A stretch of 35,654 bases of DNA from Desulfovibrionaceae bacterium (lineage in GTDB: Bacteria; Desulfobacterota; Desulfovibrionia; Desulfovibrionales; Desulfovibrionaceae), in assembly GCA_029008115.1 (NCBI GenBank), contig JAQXJC010000025.1, forward strand, positions 1 through 35,654, read 5' to 3'. A program made the translations under genes and the position numbers. The notes under the pieces are model-generated. The model was given only the letters and a program-made list of their open reading frames with translations. It was not told where the DNA came from and ran no database searches. This document shows, piece after piece, positions 5,146 through 35,654 of this stretch (position 1 is the stretch's first letter; every line of letters starts with the position of its first letter).

Positions 5146-5175
5146 GCGCACATCATGCTCTGGAGACTGCCTGCC

Positions 5176-5667
5176 ATGCGTATTTCTGAAAATACAAAAA
5201 AATTCGTGCTCTGTCTGACAAGCTGCTTTTATTTTCCCTGTGTTCTATTTCTGCTCAGTGTCCCACACTATCCAATATATGCAGTAAAATCACTCGCGAC
5301 GTCTTTCATACCTTCCTTTATATTTTCTGTGATACTCCTTCTTTTGCATGGGAAGCCATTCAAAATACTAGTGAAGGTAAATGCAATATATCTTATTCTA
5401 ATAAACTTTATTCTTATATATCATACATATCTGTATCAAATACCTGTCGCAAATGAAGGATACTTTGTTATCTTTGATGCACTACATCCACAAAATTTTC
5501 ATGAAAATATTGGCTGGCTAAAAGCGAATTTCAGCATTGCAGCTCTTTGCATCACGCTGTTTTTCCTAGCTATATTTATAGCTATTACGAAAAAATTACT
5601 ACAGCACGCATATAAATCTTATATATATATTAATGTCAATAATCTTCCTGTGTGCCGGTCTCTATAA
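5176..5667 (+). CDS. N-terminal membrane part of a split EptA-like phosphoethanolamine transferase
   Basis: ATG 5176 is chosen because GGAG lies at 5162-5165. An upstream in-frame ATG at 5155 is possible but has a weaker ribosome site. The ~163 residues are almost entirely membrane: four hydrophobic helices separated by short loops, as in the first four of the five helices of EptA-family transferases. The frame then ends at 5665-5667 just where a fifth helix is expected. That missing helix (IIFLCAGLYKY) is present in the next frame over, at the start of the sulfatase-like part. The frame change falls in or near an alternating TA tract at 5620-5630; adding one TA unit or removing one base would fuse both parts into a ~540-residue protein of normal family length. 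The DNA is very AT-rich (14 G/C of 60 at 5581-5640), unlike its neighbours, suggesting horizontal gain. Confidence 0.7.
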   Translation: MRISENTKKFVLCLTSCFYFPCVLFLLSVPHYPIYAVKSLATSFIPSFIFSVILLLLHGKPFKILVKVNAIYLILINFILIYHTYLYQIPVANEGYFVIFDALHPQNFHENIGWLKANFSIAALCITLFFLAIFIAITKKLLQHAYKSYIYINVNNLPVCRSL

Positions 5668-6787
5668 ATACAAAAGTCCGGAAGAGCTTTTCAGCAAATA
5701 TCAACAGACAACTATATTCATTCAATATTCACGATACCTGGATATGCTCAAAGAGCTGCGGAGCATAGAACAGACAACAAAAAATATTTCCGTGGAAGCA
5801 TCCTGTACCATATTAGATAAACAACCATTATTTATAATTATTATTGGTGAATCAGCTACAAAGCACCATCTCGGCCTCTATGGCTATACCCGAGAGACAT
5901 CTGCCTTCACAAAAGAAATTTCCCCTCTGCATATCTTTCATGATGTGGTCTCTGCATCAAGCGCTACGATAACAGCGCTCAAGGCTGCCTGCACAATACA
6001 AACATCTTCCAGCCAGACTGCATCTCTTGTTGATTTCTTCAATAGCGCTGGATTTAAGACTGAGTTATATTCAAACCAGCCCACAGGAGGACGCTACGAT
6101 TCAGCTCTGTCATACATATTTAACAATGCCCAGAAAAAATATTACAGTATTAAGTACGGTCAATACGTCAAGGAAGATGGCATACTTCTTGACAAGATAA
6201 TATCATCTATACAGGAACAAACAGGTCCGAAAGTAATATTTATCCACCTATTTGGCTCACATGCAGATTATATAGACAGATACCCAAAGAGCTTTAGCAA
6301 ATTTTCTGGCAGTGATTGCATCGACAACAAAAGCTTCATACCGACAAGTAAAAAAATATATGCGCAGACACGCATAAATACCTATGATAATTCAATATTA
6401 TATACGGACCATATCATAAGCAGGATAATAGAAGCTGCAAAAAACACAAGCAGATACAGCTATGCCATTTATTTTTCCGACCACGGTGAAGAAAACTATG
6501 ATTTCAGAGACTATTCAGGCCGGGGAGGAAACAACTCAAATATCATATATGATATTCCGTTTATCATTTGGACTTCGGAAGACTTTCTTCAAGATCACAA
6601 GAATTTTTTCACAGACGACATAAAGAATCGTCAGCTATATATGAAAAATTTCATCCCATCAGTGCTGCAACTGTCAAATATTTCAACAGACAGCATAAAC
6701 TTTGCCAACAGCTTCTTTGCGCATCATCCATTGCAGCAACAAAGATATTGTGATGATCGTGAATACTCCACACTGATACGTCAATAA
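5633..6787 (+). CDS. Sulfatase-fold catalytic part of a split EptA-like phosphoethanolamine transferase
   Basis: The frame encodes 384 residues from ATG 5633, overlapping the membrane part by 35 bases in another frame. The first residues form a hydrophobic helix, the expected fifth membrane segment. The alkaline-phosphatase/sulfatase fold follows, with recognisable metal and catalytic elements: IIGESATKH (metal-binding Glu), SSATITALKAACT (the region of the catalytic Thr that carries phosphoethanolamine), HLFGSHADY, and YFSDHGEENYD (Asp-His metal ligands). Family members transfer phosphoethanolamine to lipid A or other surface glycans in the periplasm, altering charge and cationic-peptide resistance. 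Alone, this fragment keeps one helix and the catalytic domain. Whether it is made from its own ATG, by frameshifting or not at all cannot be told from the sequence. Low GC (23 of 60 at 6241-6300) marks it as a likely acquisition. Confidence 0.75.
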   Translation: MSIIFLCAGLYKYKSPEELFSKYQQTTIFIQYSRYLDMLKELRSIEQTTKNISVEASCTILDKQPLFIIIIGESATKHHLGLYGYTRETSAFTKEISPLHIFHDVVSASSATITALKAACTIQTSSSQTASLVDFFNSAGFKTELYSNQPTGGRYDSALSYIFNNAQKKYYSIKYGQYVKEDGILLDKIISSIQEQTGPKVIFIHLFGSHADYIDRYPKSFSKFSGSDCIDNKSFIPTSKKIYAQTRINTYDNSILYTDHIISRIIEAAKNTSRYSYAIYFSDHGEENYDFRDYSGRGGNNSNIIYDIPFIIWTSEDFLQDHKNFFTDDIKNRQLYMKNFIPSVLQLSNISTDSINFANSFFAHHPLQQQRYCDDREYSTLIRQ

Positions 6788-6865: not shown

Positions 6866-7945
6866 CTATTCGGGGGACGCTGCGCTCATCTCCCGCTCGC
6901 TGGCGGCCTTGAGCTGACCGCAGGCGGCATTGATGTCCTGCCCCTTGCTCTTGCGGATAATGGCCGTAATATTGTGATCCCACAGATATTTTTCAAACGC
7001 AAGGATGCGCTCTTCCGTGGGGGCGGCATAAATATCCGTGGCGGAAGGGTTGTAGACAATGAGGTTCAGCTTGCCCTTGACGCGGGAGACCAGGCGTACC
7101 AGCTCCCGGGCCTGCTCAATGCCGTCGTTGACGCCACCCAGCAGCAGATACTCAAAGGTAATCCGCTCGCGCGCCTTGAGGGAATAGGATTCCAGCGCCG
7201 TCATCAGCCCTTCCAGCGGCCAGCGGGCGGCCTTGGGCATGATGCGGGCGCGCAGCTCCTGCGTGGGCGCGTGCAGGGATACCGCCAGATAGGCAAGGCC
7301 GCAGTCGCTCAGCTCCTTCAGGCCCTTCTCAATGCCGCAGGTGGATACGGTAATGCGGCGCGGCGAAAAATTCAGGCCGGTATCGCTGTTCAGACTTTCC
7401 AGGGCGCGCATGACTTCGCGCAGATTGAGCAGCGGCTCGCCCATGCCCATGAACACCAGATTGCGCAGCACGGGATACTCCGGCCTGCGATCGCCCAGGT
7501 AATCGCGCGCCACGAGAATCTGCCCCAGAATCTCGCCCATGCTCATGTTTCGCTCAAAGCCCATGGTACCTGTGCTGCAAAACGTACAGCCCATGGCGCA
7601 GCCCACCTGCGAGGACAGGCACTGCGTCGTGCGGATGCTGCCGTCGCGGCTCTCCGATGGGATGAGCACGGTCTCCACCAGCGCGCCATCTGCCAGCCGC
7701 AGCAGGAACTTCGTCGTGCCGTCCCGGCTTTTCTCCACTTTTGCTACTTCCGGCCAGCGAATTTCCGCCTGTTCCGCCAGCAGTGCGCGCGTCTTTTTAG
7801 AGACATTGGTCATGCACTCAAAGTCACGCGCCATGCGCTGCCACAGCCACTGCCACACCTGCACGGCCCGGAACCTAGGCTCGCCCAGCTCCTCGGTCAT
7901 CCACCGGGTCAGCTCCGGCAGGGTCATGTTCAAAATATCTTTCAT
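6866..7945 (-). CDS. rlmN: 23S rRNA/tRNA adenine-C2 methyltransferase RlmN, copy 1
   Basis: The protein has 359 residues from ATG at 7945 (minus strand), with GAGGA shortly upstream. It is a radical-SAM enzyme that makes 2-methyladenosine at A2503 of 23S rRNA and A37 of some tRNAs. The CxxxCxxC iron-sulfur motif is C116/C120/C123 (GCAMGCTFC). The two working cysteines of the family are present: C109 in TQCLSSQ (equivalent to E. coli C118) and C342 in ACGQL (the methyl-carrying Cys, C355 in E. coli). The SAM-binding MGMGEPLLN and the SLHAPTQELRARIMP block are intact. It follows the HD-domain gene on the same strand, 115 bases away, with a terminator hairpin between. A second complete copy lies at 34119-35192 beside a second HD gene. 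Apart from this duplication nothing in the protein is odd. Confidence 0.95.
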   Translation of the reverse strand: MKDILNMTLPELTRWMTEELGEPRFRAVQVWQWLWQRMARDFECMTNVSKKTRALLAEQAEIRWPEVAKVEKSRDGTTKFLLRLADGALVETVLIPSESRDGSIRTTQCLSSQVGCAMGCTFCSTGTMGFERNMSMGEILGQILVARDYLGDRRPEYPVLRNLVFMGMGEPLLNLREVMRALESLNSDTGLNFSPRRITVSTCGIEKGLKELSDCGLAYLAVSLHAPTQELRARIMPKAARWPLEGLMTALESYSLKARERITFEYLLLGGVNDGIEQARELVRLVSRVKGKLNLIVYNPSATDIYAAPTEERILAFEKYLWDHNITAIIRKSKGQDINAACGQLKAASEREMSAASPE

Positions 7946-8060: not shown

Positions 8061-9395
8061 CTACATGGCATTGCGCTTGGCGTATTCGCGCACAAAGGAG
8101 CGCGCGCCGGCCTCGTCCGCCACGTCGCCCGCAATCTGCGCCTGCAACAGGGCCTCGCGAATGATGCCCACCAGCGGGCCGGGAGCCAGCTGGGTTTCCT
8201 GCATGATCTGATTACCGTTCAGCAGCGGCTCCAGCATCTGCTCAGGCGTATCAGCACGGGCCAGATACTTCTGGTTGTGGTTGTAGTACGTGGGGGAAGC
8301 GCCGTGCGCGGCAATGTTGGCACGGGTCATCTCAATGAGGCGGGGATACTCGTCCAGCGCCTTGAAGCGGCGGATGCCCCGGTCGGTAAGCATGAACTGG
8401 AAGCGCATGTGATGGCGCACCAGATGGCAGAGCAGGTCAATGTCTTCCGGCAGGAAGTGCAGGCGGCGCAGTATCTTGCGCGTGACCTTCGCCCCCACGC
8501 GGTGATGCTGGTAGAAGGTCCAGCGGCCATCAAAGTATTCGCCGGTGTACAGCTTGCCCACATCGTGGAAGAGCATGGCCATGGTGCCCAGCCAGTCATG
8601 GTGGAAGCTGCCTTCGGGATAGTGCCGCATGCAGGCCAGCGTGTGTTCAAAGACGGTCTCTTCCGGCCCGTCGTCATCCCTGCGCTGCGTGACGCAGGCC
8701 AGCGCCGCCACTTCAGGAATGAGCCCCTGAAGAATATGCGCGTCAAACAGCAGCTTCACAAAGCGGTGCATGGACTCCGCCGCCACCTTGCGCCATTCGT
8801 TCATAATCTCCGTGCTGGGCACATAGTCCAGCACGCGGGAGGAGGCGCGGACAATGGCCAGCCACGTATTGGGCTCGATGTCCACGTCGAAATTGGCGGC
8901 AAAGCGCAATGCCCGCACGGCCAGCAGGTAGTTGTGCCGCAGGGTCTCATCCGGCAGGCCCAGCAGGCGGATTTCCCCGCAGTCGGTGACATTGGCAAAG
9001 CCTTCATACTTGTCGCCTGTTTCCAGCGGGGAGCCGAAGCCGGATATGCGCATCTGCAGGCGTTCACTTTTCGGCATGCGCGCCATCATGGTGGGCGTCA
9101 CGCGCAGCTGGGCCAGCTCGGGATGCGAGGAGGTTTCCATGTCCAGCGCATAGAAGCGGAAGATGATGCCATTTTCTTCCAGCACGGCCATGGCCCGCTC
9201 GTCCGGGCAGGGGCGCACGTCGGGGAACAGCTTCACCAGCGTGTTGACATCCGGCTCGCAGGCGATGTCGACAGCCATTTCCTTCGATTCTTTGAGGATT
9301 TCCTGCTGCAATGGCGCATTGATGACATGCGCGTCATAGCCGTTGCGCAGCAGGGTTTTGCATATGGTGACAGCCTCTTTGAAAGGTGTGTTCAT
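8061..9395 (-). CDS. HD-domain protein with degenerate tRNA-nucleotidyltransferase-like head, copy 1
   Basis: The protein has 444 residues from ATG 9395, with AGGAG 7 bases upstream. It follows the poly(A)-polymerase/CCA-adding class II architecture: a nucleotidyltransferase-like head (residues ~1-120), a neck (GLPDETLRHNYLLAVRALRF, matching the LRmLRAIRF neck block) and an HD domain (H251, H277-D278, then YQHH near 298). The head has lost the signatures of an active enzyme. Where the family has GG...RD, this protein has N26-A27 and Q30-Q31. Where it has DxD, this protein has A41-V42-D43. The RRDFTIN block reads RVTPTM. Nucleotide addition is therefore unlikely. The HD residues are kept, so metal-dependent phosphohydrolase activity or RNA binding is possible. 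It is next to rlmN, as is its second copy at 32563-33897, with which it shares an identical 32-base stretch (9331-9362). Its exact role is unknown. Confidence 0.85.
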   Translation of the reverse strand: MNTPFKEAVTICKTLLRNGYDAHVINAPLQQEILKESKEMAVDIACEPDVNTLVKLFPDVRPCPDERAMAVLEENGIIFRFYALDMETSSHPELAQLRVTPTMMARMPKSERLQMRISGFGSPLETGDKYEGFANVTDCGEIRLLGLPDETLRHNYLLAVRALRFAANFDVDIEPNTWLAIVRASSRVLDYVPSTEIMNEWRKVAAESMHRFVKLLFDAHILQGLIPEVAALACVTQRRDDDGPEETVFEHTLACMRHYPEGSFHHDWLGTMAMLFHDVGKLYTGEYFDGRWTFYQHHRVGAKVTRKILRRLHFLPEDIDLLCHLVRHHMRFQFMLTDRGIRRFKALDEYPRLIEMTRANIAAHGASPTYYNHNQKYLARADTPEQMLEPLLNGNQIMQETQLAPGPLVGIIREALLQAQIAGDVADEAGARSFVREYAKRNAM

Positions 9396-25279: not shown

Positions 25280-25303
25280 CAGATGCCGACCGGCGGGCCG
25301 GAA

Positions 25304-25332
25304 TTGATTTCCACGCCCGGACGCTGTAGTAT
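25304..25332 (+). promoter_or_regulatory. Probable promoter of the VKOR-thioredoxin gene
   Basis: TTGATT (25304-25309) and TAGTAT (25327-25332) are spaced by 17 bases, about 76 bases before the start codon. Confidence 0.5.
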
Positions 25333-25408
25333 CGCACCGTTTTCCCACGAGGCGGACACGGGCGCGGGCCCCCGTGCGTCCGGTATGAACCTTCTCCCGG
25401 AGACTCCC

Positions 25409-26431
25409 ATGAAAACATCCCCCCGCAGGCTGCTGTGGCAGCCTCTGGCCGCAGCCCTTGCGGGCGCGCTCTTCTGCTTCTGGATGACGCTGGACAGTGA
25501 AAGCCTCTGCGTGACCACGGGCTGCGCCCTCTTCCAGGACGCCTCCGTGGGGGGCGTCTCCCTGTGGCATTACGGCATGGCCGCCTTCATGCTGCTTTCC
25601 GTACTGGCCGTCTCGGGCTTCGGCGCGGCCGGCCGCCTGGCCTCCGGCTGCTGCCTGCTGGGAGACGTACTGCTGCTGGCGCTCATGGCTGCTACCGCGC
25701 CCTGCGCATCCTGCCTCATTGTCGCCCTGTTCTTTGCCCTGACCTACGGCGCCTTTCGCCGCGAGGCACGCCCCCGCGAAAGCAGGGGAAAGACGCCCAG
25801 CGCCTCCTGGCTGCTGTGGGCATGGGCCCTGCTCTGGGCCATCAACATTCTTGCCGCGGGCAGGAATGCGCTGGGCCCCTGGGTCATGCAGGGCGATCCC
25901 GAACAGGCAGGCATTCACCTCTACTTCTCTCCGTCCTGCCCGTCCTGCATCAAGGCGCTGAAGGTGCTTTCCGGCAATATCGGCGCCGCGTTCTATCCCG
26001 TGGCGGAAACGGACGGCGATGTGGCCGCCGTGCTCCGCATGGAGCAGCTGCGCCGCGCCGGCAGTACCCTGTATGAAGCCCAGCAGCAGGCCATGCAGGA
26101 AGCTCCGGAACTTTCCCTGTGGCGGCAGTGGGCTCCCGAGGTGGCGCTTCTGCGCTTCCGCATGCTGCGCAACAAGGCCCATGTCCTTGCCGCAGGCGGC
26201 CGCGCCGTGCCGTACATTGAATACAGGGGCCTGCCCGCGCACATCGCCCAGAAGGCCGATGCCGAAGAAATGGCCCGCCTGCGCCGCGAGGCCGCGGAGG
26301 CCCTGCGGGATGCGGGAGCCACGCCGCGCTTTACGCCGCGCGGCAGGGAAGCGCGGGAGGACGTGCGCATCCCCGTGGACCTGGAAGGCATCTCGGGGAG
26401 CTGCGGTGGGAGCGCCCCTTGTCCAGAATAG
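25409..26431 (+). CDS. VKOR-like membrane protein fused to a thioredoxin-like domain
   Basis: The protein has 340 residues. ATG 25409 is chosen because GGAG at 25399-25402 is well placed; an in-frame ATG at 25385 lacks such a site. The first ~150 residues hold four or five membrane helices with two cysteine pairs in the positions used by vitamin K epoxide reductase homologs: CVTTGC in the first loop and CASC at the start of a late helix (APCASCLIVALFF). A thioredoxin-like part follows, with FSPSCPSCIKALKVL (CxxC) and a late PYIEYRG cis-Pro region. Bacterial VKOR-thioredoxin fusions reoxidise or make disulfides in the periplasm, replacing DsbB. The C-terminus is charged and carries extra cysteines (SCGGSAPC). 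It is the gene just before the dsr operon, which encodes an exported cytochrome and an exported ferredoxin. A functional link is only inference. Confidence 0.75.
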   Translation: MKTSPRRLLWQPLAAALAGALFCFWMTLDSESLCVTTGCALFQDASVGGVSLWHYGMAAFMLLSVLAVSGFGAAGRLASGCCLLGDVLLLALMAATAPCASCLIVALFFALTYGAFRREARPRESRGKTPSASWLLWAWALLWAINILAAGRNALGPWVMQGDPEQAGIHLYFSPSCPSCIKALKVLSGNIGAAFYPVAETDGDVAAVLRMEQLRRAGSTLYEAQQQAMQEAPELSLWRQWAPEVALLRFRMLRNKAHVLAAGGRAVPYIEYRGLPAHIAQKADAEEMARLRREAAEALRDAGATPRFTPRGREAREDVRIPVDLEGISGSCGGSAPCPE

Positions 26432-26478
26432 CAGCCTGTGCTACAAGAACTCAATTTACCGGCAGAGGAGCACCCCGG

Positions 26479-26521
26479 GCCCGCGCGGGCTCTTGACGCG
26501 GCGTCGCTTCTTGTCTATGAA
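26479..26521 (+). promoter_or_regulatory. Probable promoter of the dsr operon with adjacent GC palindrome
   Basis: TTGACG (26493-26498) and TATGAA (26516-26521) are spaced by 17 bases. Two bases upstream of the -35 lies the perfect 12-bp palindrome GCCCGCGCGGGC (26479-26490). The start of the first gene is 33 bases downstream of the -10. The palindrome may be an activator site or the stem of a terminator for the upstream gene. Confidence 0.6.
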
Positions 26522-26554
26522 GGCATGCCTTTTCACGTTGTTACAGGGTGAAGT

Positions 26555-27094
26555 ATGAACGCGCTGGAAATCTTCCGCAGGCACAGGGACGAGCTGTGCG
26601 CCGCATGGGTGGATGCCGTATTTTCCACATACGAGCTGGACACCAAGGGCTTTTTGCGTACCAAGAAGGACCCTTTTCTGAATCCGGTGGGCGACATGAC
26701 CCAGCAATGCGCCCGCTTTCTCTATGACGCTGCCGCAGGCGAAGACCTGACGGACGAGCAGGTGCGCGACGGCATCGCCCGCTTTGTCAAGCTGCGCGCC
26801 GTGCAGGACTATCCTGCCAGCCACGGTCTGGGCGTACTTTTCCTGATGAAGAACATCCTGCGCGGCAAACTCCTGCCCCTGTTTGCACAGGCGGACATGC
26901 TCCCCAGTTATCTGGAGGCGGAATCCCGCCTGGACACGGTGGCCCTCATGGCCTTCGATCTCTATACCCGGGATCGCGAGCTTGTGCTGGAACAGCGGAT
27001 CAAGGAAATCAAAAACCAACATGCCCAGCTTGTTCGCTGGGCTCGGACGGTGGATGGTGGCCCGGTTGGAGGATCGGGCGAACCCAAACTTTAG
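26555..27094 (+). CDS. RsbRD N-terminal-domain-like protein at the head of the dsr operon
   Basis: The 179-residue soluble protein starts at ATG 26555. It is mostly helical: FRRHRDELCAAWVDAVFSTYELDTKGFL, then NPVGDMTQQCARFLYDA and a long RDRELVLEQRIKEIKNQHAQL helix near the end. This layout resembles the RsbRD_N domain, a globin-like sensor part found in RsbR-type stressosome proteins. The STAS output domain is absent, so it is a stand-alone sensor-like module with a Gly/Pro-rich tail. It is 17 bases before dsrM, shares the promoter at 26493-26521, and must be expressed with DsrMKJOP. I recall, without being able to check, similar small genes before dsrM in other sulfate reducers. A role in sensing or assembling the Dsr complex is inference. 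Confidence 0.7.
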   Translation: MNALEIFRRHRDELCAAWVDAVFSTYELDTKGFLRTKKDPFLNPVGDMTQQCARFLYDAAAGEDLTDEQVRDGIARFVKLRAVQDYPASHGLGVLFLMKNILRGKLLPLFAQADMLPSYLEAESRLDTVALMAFDLYTRDRELVLEQRIKEIKNQHAQLVRWARTVDGGPVGGSGEPKL

Positions 27095-27111
27095 CCCAGT
27101 GAGGTAAGGGA

Positions 27112-28116
27112 ATGATCACTTCATTACTGGTGGTGCTGGTCATCGGCGTCGTCGCCTGGATCGGGGCGAGCATCGGGCTCGCGTCCTTCTTCGGCATCGT
27201 GCTGCCCTATGTGGCCGTGCTCACCTTCATCGCGGGCGTGGTGTGGCGCATGGTGTACTGGAGCATGTCTCCGGTGCCCTTCTGCATCCCCACCACGGGT
27301 GGCCAGCAGCAGTCGCTTGAGTGGATCAAGTCTGCCAAGCTCGACAACCCCAGCACCAAATGGGGCGTTGTCAAACGCATGTTCCTGGAAGTCTTCCTCT
27401 TCCGCTCGCTCTTCCGCAATACCCTTGCGGACGTGCGCCAGGACGGAACTGTCTACTACTCTTCCAAGTGGCTGTGGCTCTTCGCGCTCATCTTCCACTA
27501 CTGCTTCCTGCTGGTGTTCATCCGCCACTTCCGCTTCTTCTGCGATCCCGTGCCGGCCTGCCTCACCTTCATCGAAGCTGTGGACGGCGTGTTCCAGATC
27601 GGCGCTCCCCGCCTGTATCTGACCAGCCTGCTGCTGCTCTGCGCCGTGCTCTTCCTGCTGGGCCGCCGCATCTTCGACCAGCGCCTGCGCTACATCTCGC
27701 TGATGAACGACTACTTCCCTCTGTTCCTGATCATCGGCCTGGTGGGCACGGGTCTCTGCCTGCGCTACTTTGATAAGACCGACATCGCCAGCGTCAAGGT
27801 GCTGACCATGGGCCTTGTCACCTTCTCGCCCAGCATTCCCGCCGGCGTCAACGCGCTCTTCTTTGTGCACCTGACCTTCCTGAGCGTGCTGCTGATGTAC
27901 TTCCCCTTCTCGAAGCTGATGCACATGCCCGGCATATTCTTCAGCCCCACGCGCAACATGCCCAACAACTCGCGCGCTGTGCATCATGAAAATCCGTGGA
28001 ACGACCCCAATGCTCCGTTCACCACGTATGCGCAGTACGAAGACAACTTCCGCGAGGCCATGGCTGAAGCCGGCCTGCCGCTGGAAAAGCAGCCTGAAAA
28101 GGCCAGCGCAGAGTAA
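27112..28116 (+). CDS. dsrM: DsrM, heme b membrane subunit of the sulfite-reduction complex
   Basis: The protein has 334 residues from ATG 27112, preceded by GAGGTAAGGGA. DsrM is a NarI-like membrane protein carrying two b hemes; it exchanges electrons between the quinone pool or periplasm and the cytoplasmic DsrK. Visible are an N-terminal helix pair, then three or four more helices, with candidate heme-ligand histidines in LIFHYCFLLVFIRHFRFF and FFVHLTFLSVLLMYF. The order and 10-17-base gaps of the following genes match the canonical dsrMKJOP cluster of sulfate reducers. Codons here are more strongly biased to C-ending forms than upstream, as expected for highly expressed genes. Confidence 0.95.
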   Translation: MITSLLVVLVIGVVAWIGASIGLASFFGIVLPYVAVLTFIAGVVWRMVYWSMSPVPFCIPTTGGQQQSLEWIKSAKLDNPSTKWGVVKRMFLEVFLFRSLFRNTLADVRQDGTVYYSSKWLWLFALIFHYCFLLVFIRHFRFFCDPVPACLTFIEAVDGVFQIGAPRLYLTSLLLLCAVLFLLGRRIFDQRLRYISLMNDYFPLFLIIGLVGTGLCLRYFDKTDIASVKVLTMGLVTFSPSIPAGVNALFFVHLTFLSVLLMYFPFSKLMHMPGIFFSPTRNMPNNSRAVHHENPWNDPNAPFTTYAQYEDNFREAMAEAGLPLEKQPEKASAE

Positions 28117-28126
28117 GGAGTGACTG

Positions 28127-29752
28127 ATGGCCAAATTACCTACCCCGCAACAGCTGATTGCGAGCCGTCCGGCTTTCCCCAAAGAGAACTGGATGGACAT
28201 CAAGCCCGAATTCAAGCCGGGCAGCTACTGCTATCCGGCCCAGAAAAAGACCATGGAAGAGCTGCACATGCCCAATCCGCACGATTGGGACCCTTCCGCG
28301 GAAGACTGGAACCTGCCCGAAAACTGGGAGCAGATTCTGTGCGACGCCTTCCATGACCGCCTGAAGAAGCACCGCTCCCTGAAGCTCTTCATGGACATCT
28401 GCGTGCGCTGCGGCGCCTGCGCGGACAAGTGTCACTTCTTCCTCGGCACCAACGATCCCAAGAACATGCCGGTCATGCGTGCGGAGCTGCTCCGCTCTCT
28501 CTACCGCCGCGACCACACCATGCTGGGCAAGATTCTCGGCAAGAAAGTGGGCGCCCGCGGCTGGGACAAGGACGTGGTGAAGGAACTCTTCTACTACGCC
28601 TACCAGTGCACCGAATGCCGCCGCTGCTCCCTGTTCTGCCCCTACGGCATCGACACGGCCGAAATCACGGCCATCGTGCGCGAGCTGCTGCATGAAGTGG
28701 GTCTCGGTATCCACTGGATCATGGACCCGGTGAAAAACTGCTCCTTCACGGGCAACCACCTGGGCATCCAGCCCCACTCCTTCGTGGAAATCGTGGAAAT
28801 GCTGGCCGATGACTGCGAAACCATCACCGGCATCCGTCCCAAGACCCCCTTCAACGAAAAGGGCCACGAGATCCTGTTCATCACGCCTTCCGGCGACGTG
28901 TTCGCGGACCCCGGCATCTACACCTTCATGGGCTACCTGATGCTGTTCCACGAACTGGATCTGGACTACACCTTCTCCACCTATGCCTCTGAAGGCGGCA
29001 ACTTCGGTTCCTTCACCACCTTCAACATGGCCAAGAAGCTCAACGCCAAGATGTACGCCGAAGCCGAACGTCTGGGCGCCAAGTGGATCCTGGGTGGCGA
29101 ATGCGGCCACATGTGGCGCGTCATCAACCAGTACATGGCCACCTACAACGGCCCGGCCCCGTCCTGCATGATGGATGTGCCCACCTCCCCCATCACCGGC
29201 ACCAAGTTCACCAACGCGGCTGCCACCAAGATGGTGCACATCACCGAGTTCACGGCCGACCTGATCAAGCACAACAAGCTGAACTTGGATCCCAGCCGTA
29301 ACGACCATATCATCACCACCTTCCACGACTCCTGTAACCCCGCTCGCGGTATGGGTCTGCTGGAAGAACCCCGTTACGTGCTCAAGGCCGTGTGCAACAA
29401 CTTCGTGGAAATGCCCGAGAACACCATCCGTGAGCAGACCTTCTGCTGCGGCGCCGGTTCCGGTCTGAACACCGAAGAAATCATGGAACTGCGCATGCGT
29501 TCCGGTATGCCTCGTGGCAACGCCCTTCGCTATGTGCAGGAAAAGTACGGCGTCAACCACATGGCCTGCGTCTGCGCCATCGACCGCGCCACCCTGCCGC
29601 CCCTGGCCGACTACTGGGCCCCCGGCGTGACCGTGAGCGGCGTGCACGAACTGGTGGCCAATGCCCTGGTCATGAAGGGCGAATGCAAGCGCACCATGGA
29701 CCTGCGTCAGGAAGACCTGCCCAATGTGACCGCCGAGGCCGAGGAGGAATAA
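28127..29752 (+). CDS. dsrK: DsrK, HdrD-like iron-sulfur subunit
   Basis: The protein has 541 residues from ATG 28127. DsrK is the cytoplasmic catalytic-like subunit of DsrMKJOP, related to heterodisulfide reductase HdrD, and is thought to reduce the DsrC trisulfide made by sulfite reductase. Two 4Fe-4S ligand sets are clear: CVRCGACADKC (C92-C102) and CTECRRCSLFCP (C161-C171). CCG-domain elements follow: GGECGHMWR, FHDSCNPARG and FCCGAGSGLN, the last providing ligands of the special catalytic cubane in HdrD. There is no membrane segment, consistent with a cytoplasmic position on DsrM. The length and motif order are those of known DsrK proteins. Confidence 0.97.
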   Translation: MAKLPTPQQLIASRPAFPKENWMDIKPEFKPGSYCYPAQKKTMEELHMPNPHDWDPSAEDWNLPENWEQILCDAFHDRLKKHRSLKLFMDICVRCGACADKCHFFLGTNDPKNMPVMRAELLRSLYRRDHTMLGKILGKKVGARGWDKDVVKELFYYAYQCTECRRCSLFCPYGIDTAEITAIVRELLHEVGLGIHWIMDPVKNCSFTGNHLGIQPHSFVEIVEMLADDCETITGIRPKTPFNEKGHEILFITPSGDVFADPGIYTFMGYLMLFHELDLDYTFSTYASEGGNFGSFTTFNMAKKLNAKMYAEAERLGAKWILGGECGHMWRVINQYMATYNGPAPSCMMDVPTSPITGTKFTNAAATKMVHITEFTADLIKHNKLNLDPSRNDHIITTFHDSCNPARGMGLLEEPRYVLKAVCNNFVEMPENTIREQTFCCGAGSGLNTEEIMELRMRSGMPRGNALRYVQEKYGVNHMACVCAIDRATLPPLADYWAPGVTVSGVHELVANALVMKGECKRTMDLRQEDLPNVTAEAEEE

Positions 29753-29756
29753 CAAC

Positions 29757-30140
29757 ATGTACAACGCCAAAGCTGTCATTCTCGGGATCCTCGTTTTCGC
29801 GGTCCTGTTCTCCACCCCCTTCTGGGCCAACTTCGGCGGTACCAAGGACTACAAGCGTCCTGCCATCGTCCTGCCCCAGAATGAAAAGGAATGCGTGGAA
29901 CCCGTCGAGTTCATGCGCGCCGAGCACATGTACCTGCTCAACGAATGGCGCGATCAGGCCCTGCGCTATGAGAACCGCACCTATGTGTCGTCCACCGGCA
30001 AAAAGTGGCCCATCAGCCTGCAGAACACCTGCCTGAAGTGCCACAGCAACTACGAAGAGTTCTGCGACAAGTGCCACGTGTCCAACAGCGTCGATCCTTA
30101 CTGCTGGACCTGCCACATTCTTCCCAAGGGGAACAAGTAA
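29757..30140 (+). CDS. dsrJ: DsrJ, triheme cytochrome c
   Basis: The 127-residue protein starts at ATG 29757, 4 bases after dsrK. An uncleaved-looking N-terminal hydrophobic helix (AVILGILVFAVLF) anchors it facing the periplasm. Three CxxCH heme sites lie in the last 40 residues: CLKCH, CDKCH and CWTCH. The upstream Cys in KECVEPVEFMR is at the place of the Cys proposed as an unusual heme ligand in DsrJ. Family knowledge puts it as the periplasmic redox subunit of the complex. The stop overlaps the dsrO start (TAATG). Confidence 0.95.
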   Translation: MYNAKAVILGILVFAVLFSTPFWANFGGTKDYKRPAIVLPQNEKECVEPVEFMRAEHMYLLNEWRDQALRYENRTYVSSTGKKWPISLQNTCLKCHSNYEEFCDKCHVSNSVDPYCWTCHILPKGNK

Positions 30141-30922
30141 TGAACAAAAGCAGAAGATCCTTTCTGAAGGTGGCGGGCCTCTCGGTCTTTGCCCTGAGCA
30201 GCGGCCTGGCCACCATGGCCGGCTCTGCCCAGGCCGGTGCGCGCATCGGCTCCTATGAACCCAACGCCAAGGCCCTGAAGGCCAAGCGCTGGGCCATGGT
30301 CATCGACACCCGCGCCTTCAAGAACGCCAAGGAATACGCTCCCATCATCGAAGCCTGCCACAAGGCCCACAACGTGCCCACCATGGAAGGCCATCAGGAC
30401 ATCAAGTGGATGTGGCTCGAAAAGTTCGACCACGCCTTCCCCGACGACCTGAACGAACACCTGACCTCCCGTGTGAAGGATGCCAGCTATCCCCTGCTGT
30501 GCAACCACTGCACCAACCCGCCGTGCGTGCGCGTGTGCCCCACCCAGGCCACCTATCAGATGGAAGACGGCATCATCGCCATGGACTACCATCGCTGCAT
30601 CGGCTGCCGTTTCTGCATGGCCGGCTGTCCCTTCGGCGCCCGCTCCTTCAACTTTGTGGATCCCCGCAAGTACCTGAGCGATCCCGTGCCGAACCCCGCC
30701 TACCCCACCCGCATGATCGGTGTGGTGGAAAAATGCACCTTCTGCGCCGAGCGCCTGGCCGTGGGCCAGATGCCCGCCTGCGTGGAAGCTGCCGGCGGCC
30801 GCATCCTCTTCGGCGATCTCAACGATCCCAAGTCCGATGTGTGCAAGGCCCTCGCCTCCAACTACAGCATTCGCCGCAAGCCCAATCTGGGCACCCAGCC
30901 CGGCGTTTACTACCTCATCTAG
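30140..30922 (+). CDS. dsrO: DsrO, periplasmic ferredoxin-like subunit with Tat signal
   Basis: The protein has 260 residues from ATG 30140, which shares its A with the dsrJ stop. The start is fixed by the twin-arginine signal NKSRRSFLKVAGLSVFALS followed by an AQA cleavage site. The mature part has cysteine sets for 4Fe-4S clusters: CNHCTNPPCVRVCP, CIGCRFCMAGCP, CTFCAERL and a further C-containing stretch (MPACVEAA, SDVCKAL). This is the NrfC/DmsB-like electron-transfer family. It is exported folded and pairs with DsrP on the outer face of the membrane. Confidence 0.95.
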   Translation: MNKSRRSFLKVAGLSVFALSSGLATMAGSAQAGARIGSYEPNAKALKAKRWAMVIDTRAFKNAKEYAPIIEACHKAHNVPTMEGHQDIKWMWLEKFDHAFPDDLNEHLTSRVKDASYPLLCNHCTNPPCVRVCPTQATYQMEDGIIAMDYHRCIGCRFCMAGCPFGARSFNFVDPRKYLSDPVPNPAYPTRMIGVVEKCTFCAERLAVGQMPACVEAAGGRILFGDLNDPKSDVCKALASNYSIRRKPNLGTQPGVYYLI

Positions 30923-30934
30923 GGAGAACAGGCC

Positions 30935-32101
30935 ATGCTTGAAAAATTGCTTACCGGTCCCAAGACCTACTACCTGTGGCTGCTCTTCCTGCTCGCAGTC
31001 ATCGCCGGTTGCGGCCTGGTCTACCTGCAGCAGCTGCAGGAAGGCCTCTCCATCACCGGCATGAGCCGCGATGTCTCGTGGGGCCTCTACATCTCGCAGT
31101 TCACCTATCTTGTGGGTGTGGCCGCTTCCGCCGTCATGCTGGTGCTGCCCGCCTACTTCCACCACTACAAGAAGTTCAAGCGCATGATCATCTTCGGTGA
31201 ATTCATGGCCATCTCGGCCGTGGTCATGTGCGCCCTCTTCATCGTGGTGGACCTGGGCCAGCCCCAGCGCATGATGAACGTGCTGCTGCATCCCACGCCC
31301 AATTCGGTCATGTTCTATGACATGATCGTGCTCATCGGCTACCTGACCCTCAACGCCGTCATCGGCTGGGTCACCCTGGAAGCCGAGCGCCATGACGTGG
31401 AACCGCCCAAGTGGATCAAGCCCCTGATCTACCTCTCGATCCTGTGGGCCTTCTCCATCCACACCGTGACCGCCTTCCTGTACGCCGGCATCCCCGGCCG
31501 CCATTACTGGCTGACCGCCATCATGGCCGCCCGCTTCCTGTCCTCGGCGTTCTGCTCCGGTCCCGCCATCCTGCTGCTGCTGATCTTCATCGTGCGCCGC
31601 CTCACCGGCTTCGATCCCGGCCGCGACGCCATCAAGACCCTGACGACCATCATCACCTATGCCATGTGCATCAACGTGTTCTTCTACCTGTTGGAAGTCT
31701 TCACCGCGTTCTACAGTGGCATCCCCGGTCATCAGCATCCCCTGGTCTTCCTGTTCGCTGGTCATGAAGGCCACGTTTCCTGGGTGACCAACTGGATGTG
31801 GGCCGCTGTGGTCATGGCCGCCGCTTCCCTGATCATCCTGATCCCGCCGCAGTGGCGTACCGGCCCCCTGCTGCCCCTGGCTCTGGTGCTGCTGGTTGCC
31901 GCTTCCTGGATCGACAAGGGCCTCGGCCTGCTCATCGGTGGTTTCACTCCCAACATGTTTGAGACCGTCACCGAATACGCCCCCACCGGCCGTGAGATCA
32001 TCGTGGCCCTGGGCGTGTACGCCGTGGGCGCCCTGGTGCTCTCCCTGCTCTGGAAGATCGCCCTGGGCGTGAAGCGCGAAACCGGTCACTTCAGCGACTA
32101 G
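30935..32101 (+). CDS. dsrP: DsrP, NrfD-like quinone-interacting membrane subunit
   Basis: The protein has 388 residues from ATG 30935, 12 bases after dsrO, with GGGAGA upstream. About ten hydrophobic helices span the protein, as in NrfD/PsrC-type subunits. RDVSWGLYISQFTYLVGVAAS in the early part and FSIHTVTAFLYAGIPGRHYW in the middle are typical of the family, the latter near the proposed quinone site. It passes electrons between quinol and DsrO. It is the last gene of the operon and is followed by a strong terminator. Confidence 0.96.
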   Translation: MLEKLLTGPKTYYLWLLFLLAVIAGCGLVYLQQLQEGLSITGMSRDVSWGLYISQFTYLVGVAASAVMLVLPAYFHHYKKFKRMIIFGEFMAISAVVMCALFIVVDLGQPQRMMNVLLHPTPNSVMFYDMIVLIGYLTLNAVIGWVTLEAERHDVEPPKWIKPLIYLSILWAFSIHTVTAFLYAGIPGRHYWLTAIMAARFLSSAFCSGPAILLLLIFIVRRLTGFDPGRDAIKTLTTIITYAMCINVFFYLLEVFTAFYSGIPGHQHPLVFLFAGHEGHVSWVTNWMWAAVVMAAASLIILIPPQWRTGPLLPLALVLLVAASWIDKGLGLLIGGFTPNMFETVTEYAPTGREIIVALGVYAVGALVLSLLWKIALGVKRETGHFSD

Positions 32102-32120
32102 TTTCACGATCCCGCACTCC

Positions 32121-32151
32121 AAAGGCCCCGTGCTCGCACGGGGCCTTTTTT
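32121..32151 (+). terminator. Rho-independent terminator of the dsr operon
   Basis: A 13-bp stem, AAAGGCCCCGTGC (32121-32133) and GCACGGGGCCTTT (32136-32148), with a 2-base loop and a run of T to 32151. Confidence 0.97.
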
Positions 32152-32442
32152 GTTGCCCGGGGCCTCCGCATGAACGAGGCCGCCCACCTTACCTGAAAGG
32201 ACGGCACGGCACCCCGCCGGACGGCGGCATGCCTCTCACGGGTCTGCCCCTCCCCTGAACGTACGGCCTGATGCCGGGACTCGTGCCTTCTCATCCTGTC
32301 CGCCCCAGACGTTCCGGGGGCTGTCGTGGGGGCGCCCCGGCAGCTTGTGCGGGCATCCGGGCAAGGCTCTCCCCGCAGGCCAGGGCATCGTTTCCAGCCC
32401 CTTTTGCCACCGGGAGACATCGTGCCCGGAGCGCACTGTTGC
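32152..32442 (+). other. Gap between dsr terminator and HD copy 2 promoter, no gene seen
   Basis: About 290 bases with no convincing reading frame, ribosome site or RNA gene on either strand. Several short GC-rich inverted pieces are present, but none has a clear terminator form. It may be the scar of an insertion or join, since the duplicated HD/rlmN module begins just after it. Confidence 0.4.
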
Positions 32443-32501
32443 TTGACTTTGCCCCCATTGCCGCCGATACTGAAATCAGCGGCCTGCAATGCGGTCAGGC
32501 C
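32443..32501 (+). promoter_or_regulatory. Promoter and downstream inverted repeat for HD gene copy 2
   Basis: TTGACT (32443-32448) and GATACT (32466-32471) are spaced by 17 bases. An inverted repeat GGCCTG-N9-CAGGCC follows at 32481-32501, in the start of the transcript. A small GCGGC-TTC-GCCGC hairpin at 32537-32549 sits just before the ribosome site GAGGAG. The -35 context equals that of copy 1. Confidence 0.55.
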
Positions 32502-32562
32502 TTCACAACGCATGTATGCCGGGGATTTCCCTGGATGCGGCTTCGCCGCTTGAGGAGTTTTC

Positions 32563-33897
32563 ATGGAAAAAGCGCTAAAAGACGCCATCACCATCTGCAA
32601 AACCCTGCTGCGCAACGGCTATGACGCCCATGTCATCAATGCGCCCGTGCAGGAACATCTTTTGAAACACAGCAAACAGCTGGCTGTGGACATCGCCTGT
32701 GAGCCCGACCTCGAGACGCTTCTCAAGCTCTTCCCCGAAGCCCGCGTCGAGCCGGACCAGCGTGCCATCGCCCAGATGGAAAAAGACGGCGTTCTTTTCC
32801 GTTTCTATGCCCTGGAAGTGGAGGATGCCAGCCATCCCGAGCTTTCCCTGCTGCGCATCACCCCCACCATGGCCAACATGATGGATCCCCAGGAGCGCCT
32901 GCAGCTGCGCATGACCGGCTTCGGCAGCCCGGCCCCCACCGGGGACGTCTATGACGGTTTCATGGACGTCAAGGGCGGCCTCATCCAGCTCACCGGCCTG
33001 CCGGACGAGACCCTGCGCCACAACTATCTGCTGGCCATCCGCGCCCTGCGCTTCGCCGCCAACTTCGACATCCCCATCGAGCCCAACACCTGGCTGGCCA
33101 TCGTGCGTTCGTCCACCCGCGTGCTGGACTACGTGCCCGCCGCCGACATCATGGACGAATGGCGCAAAGTGGCCGCCGAATCCATGTACCGCTTCGTGAA
33201 GCTCATGTTCGACGCCCACATCCTCCAGGGCCTCATCCCCGAAGTGGCCGCCCTGGCCTGCATCCGCCAGCGCCGCAACGATGATGACGACACCGAGGAG
33301 ACGGTCTTCGACCACACCCTGGAGTGCATGCGCCACTACCCCGAAGAAGGCTTCCACTACGACTGGCTGGGCACCATGGCCATGCTCTTCCACGATGTGG
33401 GCAAGCTCTTCACCGGCGAATACTTCGACGGCCAGTGGACCTTCTACCAGCACCACCGCGTGGGCGCCAAGGTCACCCGCAAGATCCTGCGCCGTCTGCA
33501 CTTCAGCCCCGAAGACATCGACCTGCTCTGCCATCTGGTGCGCTACCACATGCGCTTCCACTTCATGCTCACGGACCGCGGCATCCGCCGTTTCAAGGCC
33601 CTGGACGAATACCCGCGCCTCATCGCCATGTCCCGTGCGGACATCCAGGCCCGCGACGGCAGCTACACCTACTTCAACCACAATATGAAGTATCTGGAGC
33701 GCGCCGAGACCCCCGAACAGATGCTGGAACCCCTGCTCAACGGTAACGAGATCATGAGCGAGACCAAGCTGGCCCCCGGCCCGCTGGTGGGCGTCATCCG
33801 CGATGCCCTGCTCCAGGCCCAGATCGCGGGCGAAGTCACGGATCGTGCCTCGGCCCTGCACTTCGTGTGCGAATACGCCCGCAAGTCCGTGGGCTAG
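32563..33897 (+). CDS. HD-domain protein with degenerate tRNA-nucleotidyltransferase-like head, copy 2
   Basis: The protein has 444 residues from ATG 32563, with GAGGAG upstream. It is the same length as copy 1 (8061-9395) and similar along its whole length, roughly three of four residues identical by eye. It shares the same losses: N26-A27 and Q30-E31 replace the GG...RD of active CCA-adding enzymes, A41-V42-D43 replaces DxD, and RITPTM replaces RRDFTIN. The HD domain is intact (H251, H277-D278, YQHHRVGAKVTRKILRRLHF). Differences cluster in the N-terminal 15 residues, in residues ~47-115 and in the short Asp-rich loop before H251. The conserved core and balanced substitutions suggest both copies are functional. 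rlmN copy 2 follows on the same strand, as in copy 1. Confidence 0.85.
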   Translation: MEKALKDAITICKTLLRNGYDAHVINAPVQEHLLKHSKQLAVDIACEPDLETLLKLFPEARVEPDQRAIAQMEKDGVLFRFYALEVEDASHPELSLLRITPTMANMMDPQERLQLRMTGFGSPAPTGDVYDGFMDVKGGLIQLTGLPDETLRHNYLLAIRALRFAANFDIPIEPNTWLAIVRSSTRVLDYVPAADIMDEWRKVAAESMYRFVKLMFDAHILQGLIPEVAALACIRQRRNDDDDTEETVFDHTLECMRHYPEEGFHYDWLGTMAMLFHDVGKLFTGEYFDGQWTFYQHHRVGAKVTRKILRRLHFSPEDIDLLCHLVRYHMRFHFMLTDRGIRRFKALDEYPRLIAMSRADIQARDGSYTYFNHNMKYLERAETPEQMLEPLLNGNEIMSETKLAPGPLVGVIRDALLQAQIAGEVTDRASALHFVCEYARKSVG

Positions 33898-33950
33898 ACG
33901 CCTCCCGCACCCTGCGGCCCCCAAACGGGACCGCTCCGACATGACCATAA

Positions 33951-33988
33951 GGGAGAGGAAGCACGGCGCCATGCCGTCTCCCTCTCCC
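33951..33988 (+). terminator. Hairpin between HD copy 2 and rlmN copy 2
   Basis: GGGAGAGG (33951-33958) pairs with CCTCTCCC (33981-33988), with an inner stem ACGGC/GCCGT (33963-33967, 33973-33977). No T-run follows. A GGGAGG-type hairpin sits at the matching place in copy 1, so the element may be a conserved part of the module. Confidence 0.4.
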
Positions 33989-34118
33989 TCTCATATTCCC
34001 GCTCCGGCATTTTCCCGGCAGGCGGCCCTTGTGCCGGACACGGGGCCACACGCCGCCCCGCCGCCCTGCCTTTCCCTCCAACCCACGGTCGAGCCCTGCC
34101 GTGGCACCCCCGAAGACC

Positions 34119-35192
34119 ATGATCAATCTCCTCGACTATACCCTGCCCGAACTCACCGACTGGATGCAGAACGAGCTGGGCGAGCCCAAGTTCCGGGCCG
34201 TCCAGGTCTGGCAATGGATCTGGCAGAAGATGGCCCGCGATTTCGACGCCATGACCAATGTCTCCAAAGCCTGCCGGGAACGCCTGGCCCAGTGTGCCGA
34301 GATCCGCTGGCCCGAGATCGTCACCGTGGAACAGAGCAGCGACGATACCACCAAGTTCCTGCTCCGCCTCCAGGACGGCGCCGAAGTGGAGACCGTGCTC
34401 ATCCCCAGCGACTCCCGCGAAGGCGTGCGCCGCTGGACCCAGTGTCTGTCCTCGCAGGTGGGCTGCGCCATGGCCTGCACCTTCTGCAGTACCGGCACCA
34501 TGGGCTTCGAGCGCAACATGACCATGGGCGAGATCCTAGGCCAGATCCTGGTGGCCCGCGAGCACCTGGGCGATACCCGCCCCGACTGGCCCGTGCTGCG
34601 CAACCTGGTCTTCATGGGCATGGGCGAGCCCCTGCTCAACCTCAAGAACGTCATGCGCGCCCTGGAGAGTCTCAACAACGACAAGGGCCTGAACTTCTCG
34701 CCCCGCCGCATCACGGTCTCCACCTGCGGCATCGAGAAGGGCCTGCGCGAGCTGGGCGAGAGCGGCCTGGCCTATCTGGCCGTGTCCCTGCACGCTCCCA
34801 CCCAGGAACTGCGCGCCCGCATCATGCCCAAGGCCGCCCGCTGGCCCCTCGAGGACCTGCTCCAGGCCCTCAAGTCCTATCCGCTCAAGACCCGCGAGCG
34901 CATCACCTTCGAATATCTGCTGCTGGGCGGCGTCAACGACGGTCTGGAACAGGCCCGGCAGCTGGCCCGCGTGGTCAGCGACGTCAAGGGCAAGCTCAAC
35001 CTCATCGTCTACAACCCCTCCGAGGGCGATCCCTACAAGGCCCCCTCACCGGAACGCGTGCTGGCCTTCGAGCAGTACCTCTGGGACCGCAACATCACGG
35101 CCATCATCCGCAAGAGCAAGGGGCAGGACATCAAGGCGGCCTGCGGCCAGCTCAAGGCCGCCCGCCAGAACGAGGCCGGGGAACAGGCCTAG
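34119..35192 (+). CDS. rlmN: 23S rRNA/tRNA adenine-C2 methyltransferase RlmN, copy 2
   Basis: The protein has 357 residues from ATG 34119. This start aligns with copy 1 (MINLLDYTLPELTDWM against MKDILNMTLPELTRWM), although no strong ribosome site is visible. All catalytic residues sit at the same numbers as in copy 1: C109, the cluster C116/C120/C123 (GCAMACTFC) and C342 in ACGQL. MGMGEPLLN is present. The only change inside the cluster loop is Gly to Ala at 119. The protein is close to copy 1 along its whole length, with differences at both ends and in surface loops. Two full RlmN proteins in one genome is unusual; a difference in target (23S A2503 against tRNA A37) is a possibility, but no sequence feature shows it. 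Confidence 0.95.
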   Translation: MINLLDYTLPELTDWMQNELGEPKFRAVQVWQWIWQKMARDFDAMTNVSKACRERLAQCAEIRWPEIVTVEQSSDDTTKFLLRLQDGAEVETVLIPSDSREGVRRWTQCLSSQVGCAMACTFCSTGTMGFERNMTMGEILGQILVAREHLGDTRPDWPVLRNLVFMGMGEPLLNLKNVMRALESLNNDKGLNFSPRRITVSTCGIEKGLRELGESGLAYLAVSLHAPTQELRARIMPKAARWPLEDLLQALKSYPLKTRERITFEYLLLGGVNDGLEQARQLARVVSDVKGKLNLIVYNPSEGDPYKAPSPERVLAFEQYLWDRNITAIIRKSKGQDIKAACGQLKAARQNEAGEQA

Positions 35193-35208
35193 ACAAGAAT
35201 GCTTTCCG

Positions 35209-35251
35209 GGGGAAGGAGGCCCTTTGCCCGCGCTAACGTGCCTCCTTCCCC
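35209..35251 (+). terminator. Hairpin after rlmN copy 2
   Basis: A perfect 12-bp inverted repeat, GGGGAAGGAGGC (35209-35220) and GCCTCCTTCCCC (35240-35251), has a 19-base loop. No T-run follows. It lies 16 bases after the rlmN stop. Confidence 0.55.
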
Positions 35252-35402
35252 GTCCCCTATCCTCTTCAAACGCGCTTTTCCCGGGACAGCTTTGGCAAGC
35301 AGATTGAAAGATCATCACAGCGCTGCAAGCCCCTTTTTATCCCCTTCCAGCGCCCCTCTGGACGCTGAAAAACAAATGTCCGGCAAGAGAGACGTACAAA
35401 CG

Positions 35403-35430
35403 AAAAAGACGCCCTCAGGGCGTCTTTTTT
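35403..35430. terminator. Bidirectional Rho-independent terminator
   Basis: A GACGCCC-TCA-GGGCGTC hairpin (35408-35424) is flanked by AAAAA on the left and TTTTTT on the right, so it can work in both directions. It separates rlmN copy 2 from the converging gene at 35480. The stretch 35252-35402 before it shows no gene. Confidence 0.9.
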
Positions 35431-35479
35431 CGTTATCCGGAACGATGGGGGGCCATGCCGTGGAGCATGGCTGACAAGC

Positions 35480-35654
35480 TCAGGCGCGGGCCCGTCGCCC
35501 CGTGCCCCGGCGACGATCCCACCACAGCCCGCGGCGGGCCAGACGGACAAGGACCAGCAGGGCCCAGAGCAACGCACAGCCCAGGTGGCCATGCTTGATG
35601 AGGGTGTACACAGGGCCGTAGAAGGAAAAGTCCTGGAAGTTGTGCAGGATCAGG
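35480..35654 (-). CDS. C-terminal end of an unidentified membrane protein (cut by window edge)
   Basis: On the minus strand the frame is open from the window edge to TGA at 35482-35480, giving the last ~57 residues. They read HNFQDFSFYGPVYTLIKHGH, then a hydrophobic helix (LGCALLWALLVLVRLA) and a very basic tail rich in Arg and Trp. This fits the last helix and cytoplasmic tail of an inner-membrane protein. No family is recognised from so short a piece. The bidirectional terminator 50 bases beyond supports the end of a real gene. Confidence 0.55.
   Translation of the reverse strand, partial: LILHNFQDFSFYGPVYTLIKHGHLGCALLWALLVLVRLARRGLWWDRRRGTGRRARA

Follow-up and report, generated by a model that had tools for sequence, protein, structure and literature searches.

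Two HD/rlmN gene pairs on one contig

The stretch of DNA described here (the window) is the whole of contig C25, 35,654 bases, of a draft genome, G000, which comprises 1.88 Mb in 52 contigs, with a listed completeness of 99.9% and a listed contamination of 1.1%. As a first-pass annotation had claimed, the window carries two pairs of genes encoding an HD protein and RlmN. Copy A lies on the reverse strand, with rlmN (359 aa) at 6866..7945 and the HD gene (444 aa) at 8061..9395, and copy B on the forward strand, with the HD gene (444 aa) at 32563..33897 and rlmN (357 aa, ATG start) at 34119..35192. Both HD proteins match PF01966, and both RlmN sequences carry the CxxxCxxC motif and exceed the TIGR00048 cut-off, with 386 bits for copy A and 405 for copy B. 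The two copies are 75% identical in the HD protein and 79% in RlmN, and no third RlmN was found in G000 at E <= 0.001.

The HD protein has a likeness to CCA-adding enzymes (TIGR02692, with a score below the cut-off), whose nucleotidyltransferase head usually carries a G-G and R motif. PF01743 (the PolyA_pol head), sought as the mark of a CCA-adding enzyme or poly(A) polymerase, was matched by neither HD protein at E <= 0.001, the sole match in G000 being located on contig C4. Across 84 aligned rows, I/V-N and Q mostly stand where G-G and R would be expected, and the HD motif keeps its histidine in 84/84 rows and its aspartate in 82/84. Across the two window copies (8061-9395 and 32563-33897) and the loci of a named genome collection (L124-L203), the protein is CCA-enzyme-like, with a nucleotidyltransferase head that looks degenerate and an HD motif that is kept, and it is likely to be an HD-type phosphohydrolase that would act on RNA without nucleotide transfer.

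The named collection was scanned with HD copy B as query, giving 99 relatives from which 80 loci were kept, chosen by likeness to copy B and including two strains of Desulfovibrio piger, PG-251-APC-1 (hereafter PG-251) and ATCC 29098, which serve as references throughout. Among the 71 loci with at least 1300 bases downstream, the HD gene is followed by rlmN, on its own strand and at no more than 1 kb, in 37, whereas rlmN is found elsewhere in the locus in seven and is absent from the locus in 27; dsrP, in turn, precedes the HD gene by at most 1.5 kb in 40 of the 72 loci with at least 1600 bases upstream. The adjacency of the HD gene to these neighbors is therefore common but not universal. A literature search combining RlmN and Desulfovibrio returned no title on the HD/rlmN pair.

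Elsewhere in the window, positions 5155-6787 have about 41% GC, against 59-72% in the contig, and hold a 384-aa frame matching the C-terminal part of CptA-like phosphoethanolamine transferases; this stretch looks acquired.

Affiliation of the two copies

A family survey of 149 genomes, G000 included, contains two further genomes of the same genus, G001 and G002. The gene order AlaT-Hom-DinB-HD-rlmN is common to the copy A region and to contig C16 of G001, with 67-93% protein identity, and rlmN of copy A is 83% identical to that of G001 at the amino acid level and 78% identical to that of D. piger at the nucleotide level. In an HD tree of 65 rows (copies A and B of the window, G001, G002 and a set of 61 named loci, 19 of the 80 being omitted), copy A joins G001 and G002 with support 100/97. 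By this grouping and by the DinB-Hom-AlaT neighborhood shared with G001, copy A is native.

Copy B has a different affiliation. Among the matches listed, the two whose HD protein is 100% identical to it in amino acids are the D. piger strains, and in the tree it is identical to the PG-251 row and joins ATCC 29098 with support 100/96. The named collection classes D. piger in Desulfovibrionaceae. At the nucleotide level, PG-251 differs from the window at one of 1335 positions in the HD gene, at 13 of 1077 in rlmN (34116-35192) and at two of 2345 (99.9% identity) in dsrJ, dsrO and dsrP, which lie upstream at 29757..32101 on the forward strand and score over the NCBIfam cut-offs for DsrJ, DsrO and DsrP. 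The corresponding counts for ATCC 29098 are 22/1335, 26/1068 and 6/2345. Since PG-251 is the closer of the two and differences are still left, the source is a D. piger strain near, but not equal to, PG-251.

The D. piger sequence is not limited to the pair. It covers positions 28729..35654 on the forward strand, from the 3′ part of dsrK through dsrJ, dsrO, dsrP, the HD gene and rlmN to the end of the contig, and it aligns at 98.66% with positions 66685-59804 of a PG-251 contig (6926 aligned bases, 49 mismatches, 44 gaps); the differences fall mostly in two intergenic stretches, at about 32.2-32.3 and 35.2-35.3 kb. Copy B is an ordinary dsrMKJOP-HD-rlmN stretch of a D. piger strain. Its order is that of D. 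piger and other named Desulfovibrio genomes, from which the region departs in that its 5′ end, i.e., dsrM and part of dsrK, is not D. piger.

These data bear on the idea that the pair was duplicated long ago within the genus and that both copies were kept. Two full pairs with 75-79% identity, in a family where the two genes are adjacent in many relatives, are what such an event might leave behind. Nevertheless, copy B is a D. piger sequence and no sister of copy A, the two copies not being each other's relatives within the genus in the HD tree; moreover, G001 holds one pair, and G002 one rlmN and apparently one split HD gene. An old duplication is thus extremely improbable. A variant reading, an ancestral duplication suggested by the flanks of the gene order seen in genus g52, which are divided between the copies (the MOP side at A, the dsrP side at B), was abandoned on the D. 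piger identity of copy B. The first-pass annotation had considered an origin of the duplicate in a related species, and as to origin this is correct, copy A standing beside G001 and G002 and copy B with D. piger. Its functional proposals fared otherwise: as the pair was likely never duplicated within a single lineage, the argument that parallel retention indicates joint action of the HD protein and RlmN falls away, and the notion that the duplicate gained another target is not supported.

A change of source within dsrK

The D. piger sequence starts in the middle of dsrK, 3.8 kb upstream of pair B. The dsrK frame (28127..29752, forward strand, 541 aa) derives from two sources: compared with DsrK of PG-251, residues 1-194 of its product are 88% identical and residues 202-541 are 100% identical. 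The native side of the join (25283..28708, forward strand) holds g22, g23, dsrM and the 5′ part of dsrK, and its portion at 26648-28707 is 77% identical to D. piger in nucleotides. Among the genomes compared, g22, g23 and DsrM of C25 are closest to G001 (50, 62 and 80%, respectively), the value for DsrM standing against 66-72% to eight genomes of genus g52, whereas DsrP, HD B and RlmN B are closest to g52 members. The possibility that the whole dsrMKJOP-HD-rlmN block is foreign from 27.1 kb on was discarded, DsrM being closest to G001. GC content was of no use as a marker of the join, the block from 27 kb on remaining at 0.60-0.67.

The reverse change, from D. piger to native sequence, occurs at this very place in another contig of G000, C20. 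At all sites between 28450 and 28990 where C25 and C20 differ, D. piger agrees with C20 up to 28708 and with C25 from 28729, so that the switch must lie within the bases that both sources share at 28709..28728, a word of 20 bases. Longer exact matches between C25 and C20 stand on either side, one of 83 bases at 28574..28656 and the next longest, of 80 bases, at 28778-28857. On the other side of its switch C20 is native, its DsrP being the copy closest to that of G001 (90%), where the operon is whole. The change of source is therefore sharp, it falls in sequence shared by both sources, and the foreign part is near-identical to a known species.

A chimeric contig joining two genomes had already been considered in the first-pass annotation, which placed the join at 32150-32440; it is now the best-supported reading, with the join at 28709-28728 in dsrK, about 3.4 kb before the place first proposed. 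The opposite suspicion, that the D. piger reference assemblies and not G000 are chimeric, found nothing in its favor. ATCC 29098 is collinear with PG-251 across the dsrK switch, at 97% over 7.7 kb, two separate strains thus sharing the order, and the dsrMKJOP-HD-rlmN arrangement also occurs in other Desulfovibrio genomes; this suspicion deserves next to no credence. Among eight protein-database hits compared by halves (P0001-P0004, P0008, P0009, P0094 and P0101, from 120 listed of 7333), none was a whole native DsrK, a result to be read with the caution that clusters at 90% identity could hide one. The best hit, P0001, is a cluster of 888 members with a whole DsrK of D. piger type.

Between 9473 and 26431, the window differs from contig C16 of G001 in order and orientation around dsrMKJOP, SelB, MtnA and PlsY-ThrC, and in G002 SelB stands beside dsrP in the opposite orientation; the region around dsrMKJOP seems to be often rearranged.

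Further Desulfovibrio piger sequence in contigs C20 and C41

The full lengths of contigs C20, C25 and C41 were compared with a 55 kb portion of a single D. piger contig, and the right part of C41 also with two D. piger genomes in their entirety. Two more stretches of D. piger DNA joined to native sequence were located at 56559-69040 of C20 and at 23071-36459 of C41. The former comprises dsrM, g23, g22, sat, a MauG-like gene, ssb and accAD and runs into accC; the latter sets in within accC, includes PNP and typA and stops at position 36459 of 36709. C41 terminates in a 144-base repeat that several PG-251 contigs also carry at their ends. The three stretches form consecutive tiles on the PG-251 contig, at 59804-66685 for C25 (98.7%), 66686-79167 for C20 (99.9%) and 79230-92618 for C41 (99.3%): those of C25 and C20 abut, those of C20 and C41 are 62 bases apart, the order is kept, there is no overlap, and the total amounts to 32.8 kb.

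A second pair of opposite switches connects C20 and C41 in accC, whose frame is hybrid on both contigs. It is less clean than the pair in dsrK: over about 43 bases (C20:69066-69108) letters foreign to D. piger alternate between the two contigs, and in this mixed zone the switch is not carried by any single shared word. One 16 kb stretch of ATCC 29098 matches C41 across the accC switch and, as this strain agrees with PG-251 here as well as at dsrK, the order seen in D. piger does not stem from a faulty PG-251 assembly.

The genes sat, ssb, accAD, accC, PNP, typA and dsrMKJOP are present twice in G000. The native counterparts are found on C20 for sat (9.6-10.9 kb), PNP, typA and dsrJOP, on C41 for ssb and accAD, and on C25 for g22, g23 and dsrM; the adjacency of typA and htpG in the right part of C20 is also seen in G001. 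No second MauG-like gene was found in G000, in a search that covered C41 up to its last 10 kb.

Native DNA flanks the C20 tile left and right, though solely where the two reciprocal switches lie, and the outer ends of the tiles lie at or near contig ends, D. piger DNA reaching the end of C25. In the comparison of the three contigs with 55 kb of the D. piger contig, no other boundary between D. piger and native sequence appeared. This arrangement could be read as a very recent horizontal transfer, in which 33 kb or more of the D. piger chromosome would have been acquired and would then have crossed over with the organism's own dsrK and accC. Both switches are indeed reciprocal and situated in conserved genes, and both species likely belong to one family. 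However, such an event requires a core block (ssb, acc, typA, dsr, rlmN) to have been retained twice, with its identity to D. piger still at 98.7-99.9%, together with at least two separate crossovers, and no outer insertion boundary is visible, the D. piger DNA running to, or almost to, the contig ends. Transfer is accordingly given a small chance.

Copy number in the family

Across the 149 genomes of the survey, an HD match is present in 125 and two full-length matches only in G000; rlmN exceeds the TIGR00048 cut-off in 138, twice only in G000 and in G034, a genome 72% complete with matches at C24:8653-9699 and C143:2566-3600. The first-pass annotation had stated that its case would be refuted if related complete genomes never held two copies, and with one genome in 149 for the HD gene and two for rlmN, G000 counted, this is nearly so. 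Within the genus, G001 has one HD/rlmN pair and G002 one rlmN; the HD gene of G002 appears as one long partial match plus a piece of 61 residues on another contig, and looks like one gene split across two contigs. In G167, two partial HD matches on contigs C58 and C15 overlap in the query, and a single-copy status cannot be called. Weak second HD matches occur in G100, G111, G142 and G145.

DsrP is matched in 133 of the 149 genomes. Apart from G000, two long DsrP matches occur in G153 (C39 and C48) and G032 (C15 and C8). The double matches of G034, G167, G153 and G032 might be further mixed assemblies or real second copies. In G002, which is 76% complete in 330 contigs, two partial DsrM matches on two contigs, one of them with three stops, overlap in the query, and DsrP is 84% identical to the D. 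piger-type copy against 82.5% to the C20 copy; a single dsr operon throughout the genus therefore cannot be asserted.

Origin of the second pair and implications

Altogether, copy B is a D. piger dsrMKJOP-HD-rlmN stretch that was very probably spliced onto the native dsrK when mixed DNA was assembled or binned, and this organism likely has no second pair; the apparent duplication of HD and rlmN is likely not real. A chimera is the simplest account of two reciprocal joins in conserved genes, of a named species matched at near-identity, of consecutive tiles and of the lack of any other boundary in the 55 kb of D. piger compared. At conserved genes with common sequence, the assembler would have mistaken one of two related genomes for the other, and the resulting contigs would have been kept in the bin through their native parts. 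The organism's own HD protein and RlmN would then be those of copy A alone, the usual single set, and mixed reads in the consensus could yield the unclean zone in accC.

Several observations count against a chimera. A word of 20 bases is short for a join, all the more with longer exact runs (83 and 80 bases) on either side; the accC switch is unclean; and the listed contamination of 1.1% is similar to that of most relatives. Furthermore, a genome that truly held both copies would show reciprocal switches just as well after one real crossover between them, and the partial DsrM matches and the DsrP identities of G002 sit awkwardly with the chimeric reading.

A chimeric assembly such as that favored here has counterparts among known artefacts. 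Interspecies translocation is described as a class of misassembly in MetaQUAST (PMC10174551), and C25 is like it in being one contig with two species and a sharp switch. Unlike in that description, the switches here come in two opposite pairs across three contigs of one bin and are known from the assembled sequence alone. Likewise, G000 resembles the redundant contamination by a related lineage outlined for GUNC (PMC8201837), with surplus close orthologues of genes already present, with the difference that its foreign parts are fused to native contigs.

Were the transfer true, a living bacterium would be holding the D. piger block next to its own copies, both sets rearranged by the crossovers in dsrK and accC. 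Whole core blocks would then have been exchanged across genera, giving hybrid DsrK and AccC proteins, and the event would have been observed very soon after it took place. Under the chimeric assembly, the false duplication of rlmN is removed, along with the functional story that rested on it, and a warning is left: even at a listed 99.9% completeness and 1.1% contamination, a draft genome can contain core genes of hybrid make-up, such as dsrK and accC, which would mislead counts of gene copies, scans for transfer and trees of DsrK.
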